Part shown: piece by piece, positions 6,961 through 20,617 of the stretch | How the letters are laid out: each line of letters opens with the position of its first letter | How positions within the stretch are numbered: the first letter of the stretch is position 1 | Origin: a virus | Direction: 5' to 3' (one strand) | Length of the DNA: 20,617 bases | IMG/VR virus record: IMGVR_UViG_3300017962_000162 | Span: 1-20,617 of that record | Notes under the pieces: generated by a model | The model's input: the letters and a program-made list of their open reading frames with translations, nothing else | Database searches by the model: none | Told to the model about the DNA's origin: nothing | Made by a program: the position numbers and the translations under genes

Positions 6961-7596
6961 ATGCCAAACAATTTCACTTGGAAGACAAAATTCAAATCAA
7001 TAATAATAGTAGACAACGAACTGTTCCCCAACGAGTACAGCGTGGAGATATCACTGACACCACACACGGCAAGCCTTAAGGAACAGACCGAGTACTTCGA
7101 CAGGTTGAAGAATCTGTTCGAACAGGTGTTAGCCAACACTATCACTGCGTGGCGAGATGAACCGTTGTACCAAACTTTGAAGGCCAGCAGTAAAAACAGA
7201 TTCATTGAATTACCAAGACCACCCTATGACCAGATAATGGCGGCGGTGTGTTTCTGTAAGTCAAACTCTATCCTGGAAAGCAACATGGTCATCAACTGGG
7301 TAAAACTGAATTCGTGGCAGGGTGATGGTATTACCTACACGGTTGACAAAGACAGCAAAGAGCTTATACTTTTAGATAGGCCTGACTGGTTCTCGGCGAA
7401 ATACAGCAAGTTTGATCCGTGGTGGTTGAGGCCTGACACGGCAACATATGACAGAGAATCAGACAAGGGAATATACACAGGACATTTCAGTTGGAACAGC
7501 CAACAGATTACCATTGACAAACAGCACCATGAACATGCTAAAATATTTGAATTCAATCCAAAGGTGCTAGATGGCGGAAAAGACAAAGACAAATAA
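6961..7596 (+). CDS. conserved-looking phage protein, unknown function
   Basis: A 211-residue soluble-looking protein, rich in aromatic residues, with many tryptophans in the second half (PDWFSAKYSKFDPWWLRPDTATYD). The start ATG follows an AGTAAATATTCCTG leader, which includes a weak late-promoter-like AGTAAATA six bases before ATG and no Shine-Dalgarno sequence. The last 26 bases overlap the next gene, so the two are probably co-expressed and may act together. No catalytic motif, signal peptide or transmembrane segment is evident. Nearby structural genes make a minor virion or assembly role possible, but I do not recognise the protein. Confidence 0.65.
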   Translation: MPNNFTWKTKFKSIIIVDNELFPNEYSVEISLTPHTASLKEQTEYFDRLKNLFEQVLANTITAWRDEPLYQTLKASSKNRFIELPRPPYDQIMAAVCFCKSNSILESNMVINWVKLNSWQGDGITYTVDKDSKELILLDRPDWFSAKYSKFDPWWLRPDTATYDRESDKGIYTGHFSWNSQQITIDKQHHEHAKIFEFNPKVLDGGKDKDK

Positions 7597-8092
7597 TCAT
7601 GGTGATGTGACGTACTCGGAAGAGGACGCCATCGAACTGCTGTACACTGATCCAGAATTCAATATATCTAAACTGTTTTTCCAAGACACAGCAAAATACA
7701 ACCAAGCATTGAAGCAAACAGGTTTGGACCTGCCCGAGATATCGACCACACCCGACAGAGGCCCTGTCGCAGAGTTTGACAACAACAACATCAACAACTG
7801 GCACATGCCAGAGAAATACTACAAAATCAACGTACTGGAATGGTTACTGGAGAGGTGTCAGAATGACGAAGAGAGATTTCGTGTGCAATTGGAGTACTCA
7901 CTGTTTGAAAAGAAGAATTTTGTCAAAGTCCTTCAGTTCCTTATCTATTTCGTTGACACGCTGAGAGAGAACAATGTGGTATGGGGAGTTGGCAGGGGCA
8001 GTTCGGTGGCCAGTTTCTGCTTGTTCCTGATAGGAGTACACAAGATCAATCCATTGCTGTACAATTTGAACATCACCGAATTTTTAAGATAA
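7571..8092 (+). CDS. protein ending in a DnaE-like GRGS segment
   Basis: A 173-residue protein. The first ~130 residues are acidic to neutral and unrecognised. The last ~38 contain VWGVGRGSSVASF followed by LIGVHKINPLLYNL and a final ITEFLR. This matches the conserved stretch of bacterial DNA polymerase III alpha subunits (DnaE) of the form GRGSsagSLvaY..gIt.idPl.y.LlFeRFL. In DnaE the catalytic aspartates follow shortly after this segment, but here the protein ends at that point. It cannot be a polymerase on its own. It overlaps the upstream gene by 26 bases, and the next gene starts five bases after its stop. The match is from memory of the motif. Function is unknown. Confidence 0.65.
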   Translation: MAEKTKTNNHGDVTYSEEDAIELLYTDPEFNISKLFFQDTAKYNQALKQTGLDLPEISTTPDRGPVAEFDNNNINNWHMPEKYYKINVLEWLLERCQNDEERFRVQLEYSLFEKKNFVKVLQFLIYFVDTLRENNVVWGVGRGSSVASFCLFLIGVHKINPLLYNLNITEFLR

Positions 8093-10664: not shown

Positions 10665-11702
10665 ATGCGTATAGGTTTCTGTTGCAAATGGCTCAATGAT
10701 CCTTCCGAATTTGGTGGTATGAAAGTGAACGCCAAGGATAGAGATCTCAATGGCCGTTCAACCACGATGCGTTGGTTGAGAGAACACAAGGACGAGGCAG
10801 AACAGAGGCAGTGGGACATCATGAACCACAACGCCACGGCGGCACGTAGACTGATAGAACGTGTGGGCACACTCCCAAAGGAACGTAGGCAGGTGAGGCT
10901 AGGTAGCGAGATGCTACAAGGCTACACAGAAAAGGACTGGAAGAGTTGGTGGCAACAGCCACATATCCAACAACATTGTGAGAGCATATTCGCACCGGTT
11001 GGCGAGATGTCTAGGAGGCTTGACGTCAAGGTCAGTTTCCATCCAGGACAGTTCTGTGTGTTGTCCAGCGCCACTCCAGACATAGTAGAGAGGAGCATAG
11101 AAGAATTCGAATACCACGCGGACATGGCACGTTGGATGGGATTCGGCAAAAGTTTCCAAGACGGTTGCAAGATAAACGTACACATCTCTGGCCGACAAGG
11201 ACCAGATGGCATCAGAAGAGCACTACCAAGATTGTCGCAAGAAGCAAGGAACCTGATAACGATAGAGAATGACGAGATGGGTTGGGGATTGGACGCCAGC
11301 CTCGAACTGGAGAAGGATCTCGCTCTCGTGATGGACATCCACCACCACTGGATAAGAGATGAAGAATACATCGAGGCAACAGACGACAGGGTAAAACGTG
11401 TGATAGATTCGTGGCGTGGACAACGTCCAACGATGCATTATTCCTATTCAAGAGACGAACATCTGGCAGTTGCAGGACTAGGAGATAAAACACACACGGA
11501 GATGCATGACATCAAGATGTTGTTGGAACGTGGTTGCAAGAAACAGAAACTGAGGGCACACTCGGACCTATTACCAAATCGTAAGGTAAATGACTGGGCA
11601 CTGAGTTTCTCAGAGAACTTCGACATACAAGTGGAGGCCAAAGGTAAGAACATGGCCTCGGAACAATTATATAGACAAGCGAAGGAAAATTCTGTAATAT
11701 AG
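10665..11702 (+). CDS. uvsE: UV damage endonuclease (UvdE/UvsE family)
   Basis: A 345-residue protein, the usual size for a UvsE enzyme. It starts with the family's MRIGFCCKW-type strand. It then shows the TIM-barrel metal-site motifs: SFHPGQF with His126, His151, NVHISG with His173, the ENDE block with Glu201, and the DIHHH cluster at 224-228. The C-terminal VEAKGKNMASEQL matches the expected final Glu/Lys-containing strand. These enzymes nick DNA 5' to UV photoproducts such as cyclobutane dimers using divalent metal. The gene probably protects phage DNA in sunlit water, in place of T4 DenV. A strong sigma70-like promoter directly precedes it, suggesting early expression by host polymerase. 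Confidence 0.9.
   Translation: MRIGFCCKWLNDPSEFGGMKVNAKDRDLNGRSTTMRWLREHKDEAEQRQWDIMNHNATAARRLIERVGTLPKERRQVRLGSEMLQGYTEKDWKSWWQQPHIQQHCESIFAPVGEMSRRLDVKVSFHPGQFCVLSSATPDIVERSIEEFEYHADMARWMGFGKSFQDGCKINVHISGRQGPDGIRRALPRLSQEARNLITIENDEMGWGLDASLELEKDLALVMDIHHHWIRDEEYIEATDDRVKRVIDSWRGQRPTMHYSYSRDEHLAVAGLGDKTHTEMHDIKMLLERGCKKQKLRAHSDLLPNRKVNDWALSFSENFDIQVEAKGKNMASEQLYRQAKENSVI
11673..11700 (+). promoter_or_regulatory. possible weak sigma70-like promoter for the 72-codon gene
   Basis: TAGACA (11673-11678) and TAATAT (11695-11700) are spaced by 16 bases, with seven bases to the ATG at 11708. This copies the geometry of the two stronger promoters at 9565 and 10631, but the boxes match the consensus less well. 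Confidence 0.35.
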
Positions 11703-13137: not shown

Positions 13138-13998
13138 ATGAAAGTAGTACCCAGCGTCGAGTTCAATATTACCAATGTGTGTAATTTGGCGTGTACAGGT
13201 TGCAACAGATTCAATCACATGAATCTCACAGGATACGAGGACTAGAAAAAACACAGAGAGGCATACAAAAACTTTTCCAAACACGTCGAGATCAGCGAGG
13301 TGCACGTCCTTGGTGGTGAACCACTTATGCATCCAATGATCAACGAGATACTAGACGACGTGAGGTCTTGGTTCCCTGAACAACAATTACGGATAGTCAC
13401 TAATGGACTCCTTGTACACAAGATCAAAGGATTTTTGGACGCTGTGAAAAGAAATAACGTGTCAATGAATATCTACATTCACAACAGAGAATGGAGGATT
13501 CCAGTATACGAAAAATTATGTGAGGCCACAAAAGAAAAAATTAGACTAAAGTGGCGTAGGAACCACCCCGGATGGGAACTTGCCGACTTTGAATTCAATG
13601 GCTGTATGCACACGTTCAATCTAGCCGAACACTTCACACAAAACACCCTCGGTGAACCTGTAAGAGACATATTGCAACCATACGAAAGTGATCGTGAAAA
13701 GGCATTTAAGGCCTGCGCGACTCCTTGTCCTACGCTGAATGGTGGCAAGTTTTACAAGTGCCCAATAAGCCATGCGTTGCCCGACGTGATAAGACAGAAA
13801 AACAACATCAATTACACGCAAGATCAAAAAGACCTTATAGACACATTCCCATTCGTGCCTTGCGATTCTGTGCAATCGTTCCCTGACGAAAAATTTCACG
13901 CACTAGTAAACGAAAGTATCAAACAGTGTTCCTTGTGTCCCGAAAAACAGCAATACCACAAGATAGGAAAAATGGATATTAGTCCAAATTACTTCTAG
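13138..13998 (+). pseudogene. radical SAM enzyme gene interrupted by in-frame TAG
   Basis: The frame from the ATG at 13138 encodes EFNITNVCNLACTGC. This is the radical SAM CX3CX2C motif (Cys15, 19, 22) that binds the [4Fe-4S] cluster and SAM. A TAG at codon 36 (13243-13245) breaks the frame. The same frame continues open for 250 codons, beginning with a conserved LGGEP motif (SAM-binding GGE). It ends with a cysteine-rich part (CATPCPTLNGGKFYKCPI, then CSLCPEK) like a SPASM/twitch auxiliary-cluster region. The whole frame is 286 codons. A single G-to-A change of TGG (Trp) would give this TAG. The gene may be dead, read through, or a sequencing error. A fragment starting at the GTG at 13300 would lack the cluster motif. 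The substrate is unknown. Confidence 0.7.
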
Positions 13999-14830: not shown

Positions 14831-15557
14831 AGAAGGATTAAAAGCGGGTGACCTCGAGGGAGTAGTCCACAAAAGATTCACTGTGGATCAATTCAAAAGC
14901 AAGATGGGAGATGATAAGAATATCATGGTCCTAGCATTCTCTGTGGACGGACAGGCTCCGGCAAAAGACCTGGAGCGTTTCGCGGAGACAGGATACAAGG
15001 AAGTGCTGGACGCGGATTGTACACCTGGCACAATGGCTGACGGAAAGCACAGGGTATTCGTTGAGTTTGCAAGAACAGAGCAAGTGGACCAACACATCAG
15101 AAAATTTTTAGATGATCTCAAGAAACTCACAAACATTGAAATTTTTGAGTTCTCATATCACAAAGATCCAACAGTGTTTGAAGCATCGTCAAAAAATCTT
15201 TCAGATATACTGCCGAGAACACCTATTGCATACTCACAGAAGATACAAGGTTTGAGGCTCGGAGAAATGAAAACTTTCTTTGACAAGTTCCAGATGATGG
15301 AATTCAAACTGGACAACAATATTGTGGAGATAAAGAAGCAGAATGCGGACACACTGAAGTTCGAACTACACGCGTTCGGTCCAACAAATCTCATAATGAA
15401 CGAAGTCAAGGCATTTAGGCTGGACGAGTCAGCAATCAGTGAGTGTTTGTTCCTAACCAAATACTTCGGACCATATCATATTACCAAAACCACAGAAGAC
15501 AGATTCATTTTCAGCAAGGATGGTGAGTCATGTCTAGTAAGTAAGAGTGGATGGTAA
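14817..15557 (+). CDS. late-type phage protein, unknown function
   Basis: A 246-residue protein with alternating helix- and strand-like segments and no cysteine-rich, membrane or catalytic pattern. The first half includes NIMVLAFSVDGQAPAKDLERF and a HRVFVEFART strand. The second half repeats a strand-turn style (MMEFKLDNNIVEIKKQ, FELHAFGPTNLIMNEV). The ATG lies 14 bases inside the upstream gene, and the stop overlaps the peptidase ATG by seven bases. The three genes are thus translationally linked. The family is not recognised. The operon context suggests a structural or assembly protein expressed late. Confidence 0.65.
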   Translation: MTFLKEGLKAGDLEGVVHKRFTVDQFKSKMGDDKNIMVLAFSVDGQAPAKDLERFAETGYKEVLDADCTPGTMADGKHRVFVEFARTEQVDQHIRKFLDDLKKLTNIEIFEFSYHKDPTVFEASSKNLSDILPRTPIAYSQKIQGLRLGEMKTFFDKFQMMEFKLDNNIVEIKKQNADTLKFELHAFGPTNLIMNEVKAFRLDESAISECLFLTKYFGPYHITKTTEDRFIFSKDGESCLVSKSGW

Positions 15558-16015
15558 GATTAAGTCAAAATTTCACGTTACAAGAATTCACAAAGAGTCA
15601 GACTGCCCTGAGGCAGGGCATAGACAACACACCAGGTGAAGAACATCTGGCAAACGCAAAAGAACTTTTTGAAAACGTGGTGCAGAAGGTGAGAGACAAT
15701 TTTGGAGTCACTGTGATCAATAGTGGATACCGAGGACCAGCACTCAATGAAGCAGTTGGTGGATCATCAAAATCACAACACTGCAAAGGTGAGGCCGTTG
15801 ACATAGAATGTCCGGGGACACCAAACTACGATGTCGCAAAATTCATAGAAGACAACCTAGACTTTGACCAACTTATCCTGGAGTTCTACACACCAGGCAT
15901 ACCTGACTCAGGTTGGGTACACGTTTCTTACAAGACGGAAGGCAATCGCAAGAGTGTGCTGACTGCGATGAAAGAAGATGGCAAGACAGTCTACAAACCA
16001 GGCCTCATACAGTAA
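15551..16015 (+). CDS. M15-type peptidase, likely endolysin
   Basis: A 154-residue protein. The N-terminus reads LSQNFTLQEFTKS, the characteristic opening of the peptidase M15A family. Zinc-site residues are in SQHCKGEAVDI (His77 and Asp84) and WVHVSY (His124). An INSGYRGPALNEAVGG loop lies before them. Such enzymes cut peptide cross-links in peptidoglycan, so this is a good candidate for the phage endolysin or a virion-associated wall hydrolase. There is no signal peptide or membrane anchor, so release would need a holin not seen here. It overlaps the upstream gene by seven bases. The next gene's ATG lies 38 bases inside it. Confidence 0.82.
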   Translation: MVRLSQNFTLQEFTKSQTALRQGIDNTPGEEHLANAKELFENVVQKVRDNFGVTVINSGYRGPALNEAVGGSSKSQHCKGEAVDIECPGTPNYDVAKFIEDNLDFDQLILEFYTPGIPDSGWVHVSYKTEGNRKSVLTAMKEDGKTVYKPGLIQ

Positions 16016-16598
16016 CCCTGTAATCAGATTAGAGAAAGAACTCGCAGACTTTACTGGCGCACCCTACGTGGTGGCTACAGATTGTTGCACACACGCCCTT
16101 GAACTCTGTCTCAGATACGACAATGTAAAGAAGTTATCAAGCACCTGTTACACGTACCTAAGTGTTCCCATGACTTTCGTAAAACTCGGAATAGATTACC
16201 AATTGAAAGAGGAACACTGGATAGGTGAGTACAATCTAAAAGGCACACGAATATGGGACAGTGCAAGACTACTGCACCCAAAGATGTATAGAAGGGGGCA
16301 ACTCCAGTGTGTCAGTTTCGGAAACGGAAAACCCTTAGACAACAAAAGGGGTGGTGCCATATTGTGTGGGACTGACAAAGATTACGAGGTGTTGAAGAGC
16401 ATGAGTTACGACGGCAGGGATCCACTAGTGGAAAAATGGCATATGCAAAAAGAATTTCGATTGGGGTTCCATTACAACATGCCTTATGAACACGCTGAAA
16501 GTTTATTGCTACTTCTAGATCAGTACAAGAAAAAAGACAGTCACTTGCCTAAGATTGTGGAATATCCAGACTGCAGGAAAATCAGCATTAAGAATTGA
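15978..16598 (+). CDS. compact DegT/DnrJ-type PLP aminotransferase
   Basis: A 206-residue protein about half the size of usual DegT/DnrJ/EryC1/StrS enzymes (near 370-400). Landmarks appear in family order: NPVIRLEKELADFTGAPYVV, the phosphate-binding stretch ATDCCTHAL, IWDSAR with Asp94 (binds the pyridine nitrogen), VSFGNGKPLDNKRGG with Lys118 as the PLP lysine, and LGFHYNMPYEHAESL matching the family's GyNyRM block. The C-terminal small domain is missing and several loops are shortened. These enzymes usually add an amino group to nucleotide-linked keto sugars. The ATG at 15978 lies inside the peptidase gene. An alternative start could be a non-ATG codon nearer 16010. It converges with the minus-strand gene, overlapping by 11 bases. 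Confidence 0.7.
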   Translation: MARQSTNQASYSNPVIRLEKELADFTGAPYVVATDCCTHALELCLRYDNVKKLSSTCYTYLSVPMTFVKLGIDYQLKEEHWIGEYNLKGTRIWDSARLLHPKMYRRGQLQCVSFGNGKPLDNKRGGAILCGTDKDYEVLKSMSYDGRDPLVEKWHMQKEFRLGFHYNMPYEHAESLLLLLDQYKKKDSHLPKIVEYPDCRKISIKN

Positions 16599-17730
16599 GA
16601 CTCTTGTAGATCTGCGTTATCAGATTGTCATCGCCAAAACACTCGTGCATTATCTCAAGATTTTGTTTCCTATTACGTGAATGCCTTTTTGTCCAGAACA
16701 CTTCGAAGTTATGCTGGGCAGATGCTGACAGGTGTCCACGGAGATTGTTGTCGTTGATTATATTCCGGCAGAACAACTTCAAGGCATCTAACCTGTCTTG
16801 CAAGTTATCAGATGTAAACCATCTGGAATAAAATGCATCGCCTGGCAGTTGATAACCATCGGCTATCAATTTAGAGTACATTTCTTGACTACCTAGGAAT
16901 ACTATCGGAATACCTAGTAAAATAGGACGATAGGTCTTTTCGGACAGATCGGATATTCCTTGATGGCTACTTTCCAACACTATCTCACAGAAACACTCTT
17001 CGTATGCTGGAAACATAGGCGCACCTACCAGTCCAAGATTGTTTGCTGGGGTCACGAGTGCGTTTAATCCGTTTATAAAATGTTCGTCTTTTGTTGCGTT
17101 TTTGATGTCATCTATTAAATTAGAGTTCTGTGGAGTGACCTCTATCGTTTCGTCGTCGACTACTTTACTGCCAACCATTACAATACTGTTGTTCAACAAC
17201 TGATTTTCCATAAGATAGTCATACACTGATTTTCTAAATTCGTTCTTCAAGACAGTTGCAAAAAGAAAATCCTTTGACGTGGTTGTCCTGTTGCGTTGCA
17301 ATTCAAAAGCCAGTGACTCAAACACAGGATCATTGAGATTCTGTTCAATCTCATTTCTTATGTGGATCTTTAAGTTACTATAATCTGATGGAACGGCCAA
17401 GTTAGATATGACGTGGAAATTCCTATGTTCCCCTAAACTGTTCAATTGTTCAAAAAAATCAATAGACCATCTGAACATATCACGAGAATAGAAAACGATG
17501 TGTGTAAGGTCTAATGCTATCACAGATTCCTTGAATCTTTGCCACTCCGATTTGTTTTTGTACAAATCTAGCAACTGTTCTTCAAACACTAAAATGGGAA
17601 GGCTTGTCTGTTCGAGGTGTTTTATTGATTTATTCTTTATTATGAACCCAGACTCGTAGTAGAATTGATCCACGAGCCAATCTGGTAAATCTAGACCTAT
17701 GATGTAGTTGGTTTTTATGAATTCAGACAT
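16588..17730 (-). CDS. glycosyltransferase-like protein, minus strand
   Basis: A 380-residue protein and the only large minus-strand gene. The C-terminal half contains CFCEIVLESS followed by LSEKTYRPILLGIPIVFLGSQ and IADGYQL (about residues 246-294). This pattern (hydrophobic strand, then sEKtyrPi..G.P.v..Gs) is typical of phage and giant-virus proteins related to glycosyltransferase family 10-like enzymes. In those the EKTyrP block helps bind the sugar nucleotide. The N-terminal half is unrecognised and may bind the acceptor. The gene is more A+T-rich than its + strand neighbours. It lies between a DegT-type aminotransferase and a hydroxylase, consistent with a glycan-modifying role. The family call rests on one motif. 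Confidence 0.6.
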   Translation of the reverse strand: MSEFIKTNYIIGLDLPDWLVDQFYYESGFIIKNKSIKHLEQTSLPILVFEEQLLDLYKNKSEWQRFKESVIALDLTHIVFYSRDMFRWSIDFFEQLNSLGEHRNFHVISNLAVPSDYSNLKIHIRNEIEQNLNDPVFESLAFELQRNRTTTSKDFLFATVLKNEFRKSVYDYLMENQLLNNSIVMVGSKVVDDETIEVTPQNSNLIDDIKNATKDEHFINGLNALVTPANNLGLVGAPMFPAYEECFCEIVLESSHQGISDLSEKTYRPILLGIPIVFLGSQEMYSKLIADGYQLPGDAFYSRWFTSDNLQDRLDALKLFCRNIINDNNLRGHLSASAQHNFEVFWTKRHSRNRKQNLEIMHECFGDDNLITQIYKSLNS

Positions 17731-17764
17731 TGTTTCAATAATTATCTGGTGAATTTTTGGTGTC

Positions 17765-17777: not shown

Positions 17778-18299
17778 ATGCATAAAAAAATCCATCTAGA
17801 CATCGATTACAAAAAATTTTTATCGCAAGAAATACCCGAAGGTTCAACGTGCATAGCACATCAGGTTGTGGAACTGAAGGATATACACGATAAGTTTTCG
17901 GGTGGTTTTCCAAAAACCTATCAATTAGCCAACACAACGATACATCAAAAATTTTGGAACGATAACGAATGTGACTTCAACGAGCTGGGGGACAAGTTGG
18001 GCATAGAGCCTGTGACTGTCAGCACCATAATGCAACCGCCAGGCAACGTGATTCCCCTACACAGGGATACCTTCTTCAAGATTAAGACCAAATATCCAGA
18101 CAACAATAGGACCATAGTGAGGTGCAATATATTCCTTGAGGACTGGAAGGCAGGACACTTCCTACAGTTCGATAATGAGGTGGACACTCACTGGAAACAG
18201 GGCGAAGGACACATGTGGGACAGTGAAGTTCTGCACATAGGTGCCAACGCAGGCATGGAGGACAAGTACACCTTACAAGTCAGCGGCTTCCTAAAATAA
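17778..18299 (+). CDS. 2-oxoglutarate/Fe(II) oxygenase-like protein
   Basis: A 173-residue protein. I chose the ATG at 17778 rather than the in-frame TTG seven codons upstream because the promoter-like box occupies that stretch. The probable iron ligands are His95-x-Asp97 (IPLHRDTF) and His153 (WDSEVLHIGANAG). The closing EDKYTLQVSGF strand is where a 2-oxoglutarate-binding residue is expected. The set fits aspartyl/asparaginyl beta-hydroxylase-like or related cupin-fold dioxygenases. Length matches a bare catalytic domain. It is followed after one base by the aminotransferase gene, so the two are probably co-transcribed. It shares the motif order with the larger protein at 8097, but similarity is weak outside the motifs. 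Confidence 0.65.
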   Translation: MHKKIHLDIDYKKFLSQEIPEGSTCIAHQVVELKDIHDKFSGGFPKTYQLANTTIHQKFWNDNECDFNELGDKLGIEPVTVSTIMQPPGNVIPLHRDTFFKIKTKYPDNNRTIVRCNIFLEDWKAGHFLQFDNEVDTHWKQGEGHMWDSEVLHIGANAGMEDKYTLQVSGFLK

Positions 18300-18300
18300 C

Positions 18301-19239
18301 ATGACCACGAGGTACACGAATCTTCCAGATAACAAAGACAAACCCTTCGGAGGTGCCTACAGTGTTCATGACCCGGAAACGTGCCGGACAAGGGACGAGG
18401 CGGTCAAAGAATACATAGACAATAATGCAAAGTTAGACAACGAAGCAATCAAGAGCAAATACGTGCAGACATACAAGAAATGGATGTTCGCCACACACCC
18501 AAAAATCAAAGGTTGGGAGGACTACAACGAATTGTGTTTTACACAGGGCACGACGGAATCTTTCGCACAGTTCTATTTGCGTTTCAGGGAGTCAAAGAGA
18601 TTGAGATTGGCCAAGGGAGAGTATTTCTACAATCAGATGATGAAAGGACTCTGGTACAAAGGAAAATTTGCATGGCTTGGTGAGGACGAAATAAGATCCA
18701 ATGACGTTGTGTTGATAAGTGTGCCTTTCTCAGACACAGGTGCGGTTCCAGACTATCTGGAAAAGTTATTGACCGAGTGCGACAACAATGATGTGCCGGT
18801 CATGCTTGATCTTGCTTATATCAATTTATCTGTTGATCTGGAAATAGATCTTACACACAGGTGTATAGAATATGTTGTGTCATCTCTGTCAAAGGTCTTC
18901 CCGGTTGAGTTACACAGGATCGGTATACGTATGCAGAGGACGAAATTCGAAGATCAACTGTACGTGGTAAACGGAAAAAATCACAACTACATCAATGTAT
19001 TGAGTGCATATGTTGGAACTAAACTCATGGAAAAATATCCAGCCAATTACATATACAACAAATATAGACAGAAGCAGTTGGACATGTGCGACAAATTAAA
19101 TCTGGAAGCATCACCATGCGTGTACTTTGGCATAGACAAACAGAGACAGTTCTCGGAATACAATCGTGGAACAGAATCTAATAGACTGTGTTTTACTAGA
19201 ATATGGGACGGAAGGATGAAGGATGACAATGAATACTAA
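18301..19239 (+). CDS. class-I-fold PLP aminotransferase
   Basis: A 312-residue protein, somewhat short for the family (about 350-400). Key sites appear in order: TQGTTESF (81-88, the PLP phosphate-binding turn), VPVMLDLAY with Asp170 and Tyr173 (cofactor ring contacts), SSLSKVF with Lys198 as the PLP-binding lysine, and Arg206 exactly eight residues later. This is the same spacing as Lys258 and Arg266 in aspartate aminotransferase. The N-terminal substrate region and C-terminal domain are reduced. The start is one base after the hydroxylase stop. The amidinotransferase start lies 17 bases inside its end. The pairing suggests that it makes an amine which the amidinotransferase then converts to a guanidino group. 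The substrate is unknown. Confidence 0.78.
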   Translation: MTTRYTNLPDNKDKPFGGAYSVHDPETCRTRDEAVKEYIDNNAKLDNEAIKSKYVQTYKKWMFATHPKIKGWEDYNELCFTQGTTESFAQFYLRFRESKRLRLAKGEYFYNQMMKGLWYKGKFAWLGEDEIRSNDVVLISVPFSDTGAVPDYLEKLLTECDNNDVPVMLDLAYINLSVDLEIDLTHRCIEYVVSSLSKVFPVELHRIGIRMQRTKFEDQLYVVNGKNHNYINVLSAYVGTKLMEKYPANYIYNKYRQKQLDMCDKLNLEASPCVYFGIDKQRQFSEYNRGTESNRLCFTRIWDGRMKDDNEY

Positions 19240-20294
19240 AACAATAGTAAGCAGTCACAACGACTGGGATCCGTTAGAAGAATGTTTTGTGGGAGTGGCA
19301 CGAATGCACGTTTCCCACACTCGATAAAAGCACACATTCTTTTTGTTTCACAACAGAAAAGTATGAAGACATAAAAGACCTAGAAGGTCCTATGGATAAA
19401 AAGATCATTGAAGAAGCCAACGAAGATCTTGATATGTTTGCTGACACTCTTAAAAAATTGGGAGTAAAAGTGAGAAGGCCCACGCCACAAGATCACAGCA
19501 AGACCTTTGGTACACCGGAGTGGACCACTACCGGATACCAGACATACAGTTGCAGGGATCTGCTGTTGCCATTGGATAATCTTATAATAGACTGTGCATC
19601 TCCGTTGAGGAGCAGGTATTTCGAGACAAGGGCATACAGGGATTTCTTATATGAAGTGATGCAGAACGGAACTGAATGGATATCAGCGCCAAAACCCATA
19701 CTACAAGACAACATATATCAAATGGAGAAGTTGGAGGATCCATCCACACGCAATCTAGAAATCGTGTTTGATGCGCCAAACGTGGTGAGGCTCGGAAATG
19801 ATCTACTATTCCAGGTCAGTAATTCCGGAACTGAACTAGGTGCCCAGTGGTTGAAAACAATTTTAGAACCAAGGGGTTACAGGATACACATGGCCGAGAA
19901 GTTCTACGCCTTTGCACATTTTGACAGCACTGTGTTACCATTACGCCCTGGGTTGGTACTGTTCAACGGTGACAGATTGAACCCAACACGTTATCCAAAA
20001 ATATTTGAAAAATGGGAAAAGATATTCATCCCGGGCGACAAGATAATAGATGTAGGTTGCTCACTGCCTAATGGTGTCACTACAACTTCACCCTACATAG
20101 GTCTGAACTTCTTCAGCGTGAATGAGGAGTTGGTTATCTGTGACCAGAACCAGACACATCTCAGAAAGATGTTAGATCAACACGGCATAGAAACAATAGG
20201 CCTTCAAATGCGCCACGCAAGGGCGATGTCGGGCGGCTTCCATTGTGTCACACTGGACACAAAACGCAAAGGCCCTAGGCAAGATTACTTTTAA
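19223..20294 (+). pseudogene. amidinotransferase gene with a frameshift near its 5' end
   Basis: From the ATG at 19223 the frame encodes VSSHNDWDPLEECFVG, the conserved N-terminus of glycine/inosamine amidinotransferases. It then runs into a stop at 19325-19327. The +1 frame takes over at about 19301-19307 and continues to 20294 with the rest of the enzyme. The catalytic set is intact: Asp in FDAPNVVRLGNDLLF (19770), His in HFDSTVLP (19917) and the nucleophile Cys in SGGFHCVTLD (20244). These align with Asp254, His303 and Cys407 of human AGAT. The two parts joined make about 356 residues, normal for the family. Such enzymes move an amidino group from arginine to an amine. Whether the frameshift is a mutation, a recoding site or a sequence error is open. 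Confidence 0.82.
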
Positions 20295-20312: not shown

Positions 20313-20617
20313 ATGTTTTCACAGATAAAAATGCTGATGACCTTGATTATGGTGATAGGACTAGCCGGAGGTGCGGCCTACATCTACAAACTCAAGGCCG
20401 ACAACGCCACGTTGAAAGCAAACCAAATCGAACTTGAAAAGGGCATCGAATCACAGGCCAAGTTGTTAGAACAACAGAAGGTGGATTTCGAGGCCATAAT
20501 GGAGAGCAACAAGAAGCTCAACGCCTTGGTGATGACCTTCAAGAAGGACCTAGAGGACCTGGACAAGAGATTCAACAAGGGCAAGAGAGACATCGGCAAA
20601 CTGGCCATAGACAGGAC
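20313..20617 (+). CDS. membrane-anchored coiled-coil protein, spanin-like (partial)
   Basis: The gene runs off the right edge after 101 codons. Residues 7-26 form one hydrophobic membrane segment (MLMTLIMVIGLAGGAAYIY). It is followed by a long charged heptad-like helix (KLKADNATLKANQIELEKG, later KKLNALVMTFKKDLEDLDKRF). A short cytoplasmic N-terminus, one membrane span and an extended periplasmic coiled coil are the layout of inner-membrane spanins (Rz type), which disrupt the outer membrane at lysis. The lysis link is supported by the M15 peptidase about 4 kb upstream, with the cargo block between. A virion protein with the same layout cannot be excluded. The C-terminus is not visible. Confidence 0.6.
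   Translation, partial: MFSQIKMLMTLIMVIGLAGGAAYIYKLKADNATLKANQIELEKGIESQAKLLEQQKVDFEAIMESNKKLNALVMTFKKDLEDLDKRFNKGKRDIGKLAIDR

Follow-up and report, generated by a model that had tools for sequence, protein, structure and literature searches.

We propose that three neighbouring genes of a T4-like phage, which encode a 2OG-Fe(II) oxygenase (OXY), a PLP enzyme (AT) and an amidinotransferase (AmT), may provide the consecutive steps of a single pathway carried by the phage. The pathway would build a guanidino group, with a sugar or glycoconjugate as its most likely bearer, and we rate the chance of this reading at slightly better than even. The genes lie on the IMG/VR viral record IMGVR_UViG_3300017962_000162, which was analysed over its 20,617 bases and is called the window here. 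The proposal is built on the identity of the genes, the conservation of their catalytic residues, purifying selection, and the co-occurrence of the genes in phages and in a few bacterial genomes.

Genomic setting and recurrence of the cassette

The T4-like origin of the window is indicated by a clamp loader gene (PHROG 168, E 7e-78), and baseplate/tail-fibre connectors, an endolysin and an Rz-like spanin were also found in the PHROG scan. The cassette is carried by a group of uncultured T4-like viruses of bacteria that are probably marine. The region is bounded on the left by the endolysin (M15 peptidase; 15551-16015, plus strand; Pfam PF08291, E 2e-20; PHROG 894 endolysin, E 5e-44) and on the right by the spanin (20313-20615, plus strand; PHROG 739, E 1.4e-7), which runs off the contig, and between them lie, in this order, a short DegT gene, a glycosyltransferase-like gene on the minus strand, OXY, AT and AmT. 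The original prediction of a PLP reading frame with an oxygenase one base upstream was borne out: AT occupies 18301-19239 and OXY ends at 18299, with the single base 18300 between them. The T4-type late promoter TATAAATA has no match in the window. TAA, TAG and TGA are all used as stops in the window, which rules out an alternative genetic code. Elsewhere in the window, a short protein (7571-8092) resembles part of the DNA polymerase III alpha domain (PF07733, E 7e-10), which is unusual for a T4-like phage, and a homologue of the UV-endonuclease UvdE is encoded at 10665-11702 (PF03851, E 8.5e-29).

Using an alignment-based search of viral contigs, 73 AT loci were obtained, or 74 with the window. 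AT is accompanied by AmT in 70 of the 74 viral loci and by OXY in 68, and when the loci are clustered at 80% AT identity, AmT and OXY are each found in 16 of the 18 clusters. The loci without AmT are L033, which is cut by the contig end, and L051, L079 and L080, which have no AmT near AT. The orders seen include OXY-AT-AmT, S370-OXY-AT-AmT, OXY-AT-S370-AmT, OXY on the opposite strand, and S370-AT-AT-AmT-OXY (S370 is a partner gene discussed below), and the cassette is surrounded by several different genomic contexts. Because order, strand and context vary, a functional link is favoured over inherited synteny, and the recurrence in varied orders, phage lineages and bacteria makes it well supported, from comparison of the loci, that these genes act together. 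The earlier reading of the genes as a three-gene pathway is therefore supported by recurrence in viral loci, where often four or five genes are present, and the recurrence of the gene order, which had been put forward as a check, was found, as was that of the AT-AmT pair, whose absence from related genomes would have counted against the pathway. Compared with the relatives L007 and L011, the OXY, AT and AmT genes of the window show pS of 0.53-0.86 and pN of 0.055-0.11, and this low pN relative to pS, together with the presence of the gene set in dozens of contigs, excludes chance as an explanation for all three genes. In some loci, a 217-aa gene that by eye resembles GIY-YIG homing endonucleases lies between the endolysin and OXY (L006:217-870, L008:2641-3294, L009:1345-1998), and this gene might help the mobility of the cassette.

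All of the enzymes belong to known superfamilies, and no description of the AT family, the cassette or phage guanidino glycans was found in the literature searched. A global-ocean survey of AMGs reported the creatine-pathway gene GAMT in viruses (PMC11360552).

Features of the three enzymes

OXY (17778-18299, plus strand) is a 2OG-Fe(II) oxygenase of 173 aa when read from the ATG at 17778, as judged from Pfam, the Fe triad and selection. An alternative upstream start is the TTG at 17757, and the relatives begin with MHKK or MHRK. The enzyme is related to aspartyl/asparaginyl hydroxylases, and its match to Pfam Asp_Arg_Hydrox (PF05118; E 0.0078, 16.5 bits) falls below the family cut-off of 22.6. 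The H-x-D...H metal triad of 2OG-Fe(II) oxygenases is present as H102-x-D104...H160 (numbered from 17757) and is invariant in 20 relatives, bacterial ones included. Against L007, pN of OXY is 0.083 and pS is 0.84.

AT (312 aa; 18301-19239, plus strand) was identified as a fold-type-I PLP enzyme of aminotransferase-like character from its Pfam match, an AF2 model, invariant residues and recurrence. The Pfam scan gave a match to Aminotran_1_2 (E 1.9e-4) and none to DegT, the best profile match is HisC (E 0.004), and the sequence is otherwise nearly unrecognisable. The fold neighbours of the AF2 model, which is of modest quality (pLDDT 66.7), are fold-type-I PLP enzymes (RohP, Plu4, MppP, C-S lyases, CobC and HisC), and K198, D170 and G83 are invariant in 30 viral and 18 bacterial rows, so that the fold, PLP lysine and Asp of class I/II enzymes are all present. 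Like HisC, RohP/MppP and CobC, AT has the predicted fold, the PLP lysine, the Asp of the D-x-A-Y motif and a phosphate-binding GTT; unlike them, it is short (~310 aa) and forms a family of its own. Judged from sequence and model, AT is a distinct HisC/RohP-like family and not a DegT/StsC-type sugar aminotransferase. Second, divergent AT-family genes occur in the same phages (L071:5084-5998, L011:3-500 and L051:2-535); the first two show 27-29% identity, and one of the three stands in tandem with the main AT. AT, S370 and the L071 paralogue gave no tblastn match in cultured phages.

This family relationship bears on the nature of the product. The product could be a free metabolite of guanidino or modified amino-acid type, arginine being one possible source. 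An amino acid would then be the substrate of AT, which might be an oxidase or decarboxylase like RohP, MppP or CobC, and the nearby glycosyltransferases would be unrelated to the cassette. The top structural matches of the AT model are indeed the PLP arginine oxidases RohP (Z 19.9) and MppP (19.3), AmT requires arginine anyway, and R295, which is invariant among the viral rows, occupies a position at which enzymes of this kind bind carboxylate or phosphate. However, RohP, MppP, C-S lyases and CobC lie within ~1.5 Z of one another at 7-10% identity to AT, in a model with pLDDT of only 67, and because these neighbours are so close together the fold names no substrate. Carbohydrate-type partners also recur too often for such a metabolite, which we therefore consider unlikely. 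The placement of AT in the HisC/RohP branch, outside the usual sugar-aminotransferase family, does weigh against a sugar, since an amino-acid-like or phosphorylated substrate fits at least as well.

The main open frame of AmT (335 aa; 19287-20294, plus strand) encodes a StrB1-like amidinotransferase. Its best solved match in phmmer is StrB1 (1bwd; E 1.8e-77 over 326 residues), the intact AmT of L007 matches StrB1 over the whole length (E 1.6e-88), and the PHROG match is to family 25854 of unknown function (E 1.2e-30). Residues D91, R110, D162, H211, D213 and C320 correspond to StrB1 D108, R127, D179, H227, D229 and C332, which we take to be the catalytic Asp/His/Cys and arginine-binding positions and whose letters agree with the 1bwd sequence. 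All six fall in the open 335-aa part, so that the AmT of the window combines full-length homology to StrB1/AGAT amidinotransferases with their catalytic and arginine-binding residues. Loss of the PLP or amidino sites had been named in advance as evidence against the pathway, and both sites are kept. Strong purifying selection acts on the main frame, with pN near 0.1 and pS near 0.8. In the tree, the viral AmTs fall apart from the StrB1/AGAT group, in groups of their own. At the catalytic position equivalent to StrB1 Asp179, Glu replaces Asp in 44 of 75 aligned AmT sequences, a difference that splits the viral enzymes.

The gene had been described as one amidinotransferase gene overlapping AT by 17 bases, and this description needs correction. 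The ATG at 19223 does overlap the end of AT, but AmT is not one frame from there: the frame ends in a stop at 19327 after MTMNTKTIVSSHNDWDPLEECFVGVARMHVSHTR. This 5' fragment (19223-19327, plus strand) corresponds, by translation against intact relatives, to the first ~26 codons. All 12 close relatives inspected have the intact reading ...DPLEECFVGTATNARFPTMDRSTHSF... in a single frame that includes the N-terminal strand, a frame that is broken in the window. Aligned with L002-L013, the window lacks two single bases within 19300-19317 (plus strand), one in an A run at ~19301 and one in a C run at ~19315, and the five residues NARFP between the two gap sites are still spelled in the third frame. 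A programmed frameshift is ruled out because the relatives are unbroken, two separate bases are missing and NARFP is kept in the third frame. A search for a near-identical genome copy with two exact DNA patterns gave no match. The break is either a sequencing or assembly error or a recent loss, and the AmT of the window would need the intact reading to work. The glycosyltransferase, the carbohydrate-cluster gene and the spanin/endolysin context had likewise been overlooked.

The cassette of the window may be decaying and the pathway dead here, with the intact relatives unaffected, a possibility that we hold doubtful. In addition to the two bases missing in AmT, the window has no S370 homologue, and a radical SAM gene upstream is interrupted by an in-frame TAG (13243-13245). 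However, AT and OXY are intact, what is left of AmT shows low pN and no stop over 335 codons, and the two missing bases each fall in a short homopolymer, as sequencing errors do. The radical SAM gene itself (13140-13998) has an intact CxxxCxxC motif (NVCNLACTGC), and its TAG, which is Trp in the relative L073, marks either a second damaged gene of the window or a sequencing error.

Partner genes, bacterial copies and the predicted product

The genes that accompany the cassette are largely of carbohydrate type. S370 (~370 aa) is present in 62 of the 74 loci, and two scanned members match TIGR04324 (2OG-Fe oxygenase) and TIGR04323 in one chain; these 'sporadic carbohydrate cluster' (SpoChoClust) families are fused in the phage protein, which scores below the TIGR04324 cut-off. 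In the nearest relatives of the window, S370 lies between AT and AmT. The first metal motif of S370 is H-x-G in 13 of 13 aligned members (L007:6189-7301 and its homologues) in place of the usual H-x-D/E. H-x-G is also found in 2OG halogenases, and the motif suggests that S370 might be a halogenase or have a changed metal site.

Glycosyltransferases of a GT4 cluster are found in 34 loci and those of a GT15 cluster in 8, and at least one of them is present in 42 of the 74 loci. A modelled GT4 member (pLDDT 87) has GT-B glycosyltransferases as its top fold matches. The window gene divergent from OXY (16588-17730, minus strand) scores 42 bits against the cassette-associated GT4 HMM, appears to be a distant member of this family and is a putative GT-B glycosyltransferase, and it has no close relatives in viral contigs. 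Some loci also contain sugar epimerases or dehydratases, and in L051 a UDP-sugar dehydrogenase adjoins AT. The short DegT/DnrJ/EryC1-type aminotransferase of the window (206 aa; 15978-16598, plus strand; Pfam PF01041, E 5.6e-10) is a possible accessory gene, and ~200-aa homologues adjoin the amidinotransferases of phage S-SCSM2R and contig L082. This ~200-aa version, with its SF...K motif kept, recurs by phage amidinotransferases (window 15978-16598, L034:3227-3814, L082:10495-11094). L082, a Chloroflexi MAG contig, has an island in which an amidinotransferase is accompanied by two GT4-type genes, a pair of short S370-like oxygenases and a short DegT; genes resembling carbamoyltransferases and halogenases were also noted there by eye.

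From these partner genes, a sugar or glycoconjugate is the best inference for the target. First, OXY, together with the second 2OG enzyme (S370) in loci that have one, would oxidise a carbon of the acceptor, and AT would convert the resulting carbonyl to an amine in a PLP-dependent reaction. Second, AmT would transfer the amidino group of arginine to this amine with release of ornithine, and the GT-B glycosyltransferase would attach the product to a carrier; candidates are virion proteins, glycans of the host surface and small molecules. We infer the order of the reactions, the acceptor, the carrier and the benefit to the phage. Against a sugar target, GT4 and GT15 are missing from 32 of the 74 loci, for which short contigs are part of the reason, and in the window AmT is broken and the carbohydrate-cluster gene of close relatives is missing downstream of AT.

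A peptide pattern found no close AT relatives in GTDB genomes. The AT HMM matched 19 of 369 Bdellovibrionota genomes (~16 of them strongly) and one of 395 Bacteroidota, this one being a known contig that may be viral; it matched none of 398 Pseudomonadota, an empty result that alone has little weight. AT and AmT are found together in three Bdellovibrionota genomes. In the MAG contig L081, which by eye also carries a uvrC-like gene, OXY, AmT and AT stand side by side with a GT4-type gene, and in the tree the AmT of this contig falls in with one of the viral AmT groups. In L145 and L146, AT and AmT are divergent and 110 bases apart, and after them come a radical SAM/SPASM gene and an Asp/Arg hydroxylase; the L146 copy is on a 917-kb contig. 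Membership of the L145 hydroxylase in the OXY subfamily is unsupported (3 bits). In the Bacteroidetes MAG contig L132, AT lies between a GT4-like gene and a 2OG oxygenase, followed by a hexapeptide transferase. Most Bdellovibrionota AT genes have radical SAM/SPASM genes around them but neither AmT nor a clear sugar context, which is a further point against a sugar. In the chromosomes of L149, L151, L152 and L147, AT-family genes stand in repeated radical SAM/SPASM clusters, sometimes with two AT paralogues within ~12 kb, and these clusters represent unexplained bacterial secondary metabolism.

The radical SAM/SPASM group includes many peptide-modifying enzymes, and the target of the cassette could be a protein or peptide (a virion protein or a RiPP-like precursor), with OXY hydroxylating a side chain that AT, AmT and the glycosyltransferase then elaborate. 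The similarity of OXY to aspartyl/asparaginyl hydroxylases, the clustering of bacterial AT genes with radical SAM/SPASM proteins, and the tail-fibre-like genes close to the cassette in the window and adjoining L128 are in line with such a role, but neither a gene for a precursor peptide nor a peptide-binding domain was recognised and the SpoChoClust partner points to carbohydrate, so that we give it a low probability. Still further down we place hypermodification of phage DNA bases against restriction, which seems very improbable. T4-like phages often glycosylate their bases, and sets of oxygenase and PLP enzymes are known in base hypermodification. However, in the loci that we examined, no gene for a base-hydroxymethylase, a nucleotide kinase or base modification was recognised within the cassette or next to it, and the bacterial copies are found in chromosomes that lack phage DNA genes.

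Relation to known systems and implications

The original prediction compared the cassette with streptomycin biosynthesis, and the comparison stands for one enzyme. AmT resembles StrB1 (L-arginine:inosamine-phosphate amidinotransferase, 1bwd; relatives AGAT, SxtG and HsvA), its best solved match, in similarity along the length and in the six active-site positions. However, the viral AmTs are outside the StrB1 group, and AT is not the DegT/StsC-type aminotransferase that is paired with the amidinotransferase in streptidine-type systems; the short DegT at 15978-16598 is a separate gene. Aminocyclitol genes of the streptomycin pathway, inositol dehydrogenase included, were absent among the window proteins scanned, the contig being a fragment and the neighbours in relatives scanned in part. 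On this sequence evidence, the parallel would hold for the reaction type of AmT and fail for the family of AT and for pathway membership.

Two systems of cultured phages resemble the cassette in their setting. In Synechococcus phage S-SCSM2R (PQ898602), OXY directly precedes the amidinotransferase within a run of glycosyltransferases, and a short DegT and a radical SAM gene are present as well, but there is no AT-family gene in the stretch read and AmT identity is only ~35%. The Campylobacter phages CP220 and CPt10 have amidinotransferases in swappable radical SAM clusters (PMC2853527). Like the cassette, these are enzyme islands of large T4-like phages, with glycosyltransferase-like genes (CP220) or a small class I/II PLP gene (WX1, CPt10) nearby; unlike it, they have radical SAM enzymes and not 2OG oxygenases. 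An HMM search did not place the PLP gene of the Campylobacter phages in the AT family.

In conclusion, we tentatively suggest that T4-like phages carry and exchange an undescribed module shared with Bdellovibrionota (2OG oxygenase, new PLP family, amidinotransferase and glycosyltransferase), the product of which would be a guanidino-sugar coating virions or host surfaces that could, for instance, prevent superinfection or alter charge and recognition; this wider picture is possible, and we hold it with clearly less confidence than the pathway itself. To the best of our knowledge, multi-step biosynthesis of unusual functional groups is rare in phages. If the pathway is true, the combination of oxidation, PLP chemistry and amidino transfer in one cassette would add a new guanidinylation pathway to those known from actinobacterial antibiotics, and the cassette would define an uncharacterised PLP family. 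Single-gene labels such as 'glycine amidinotransferase' on phage amidinotransferases of this kind probably miss the pathway. The intact four-gene relatives L007, L011 and L013 are concrete targets in the search for a positively charged decoration that may be made in infection.
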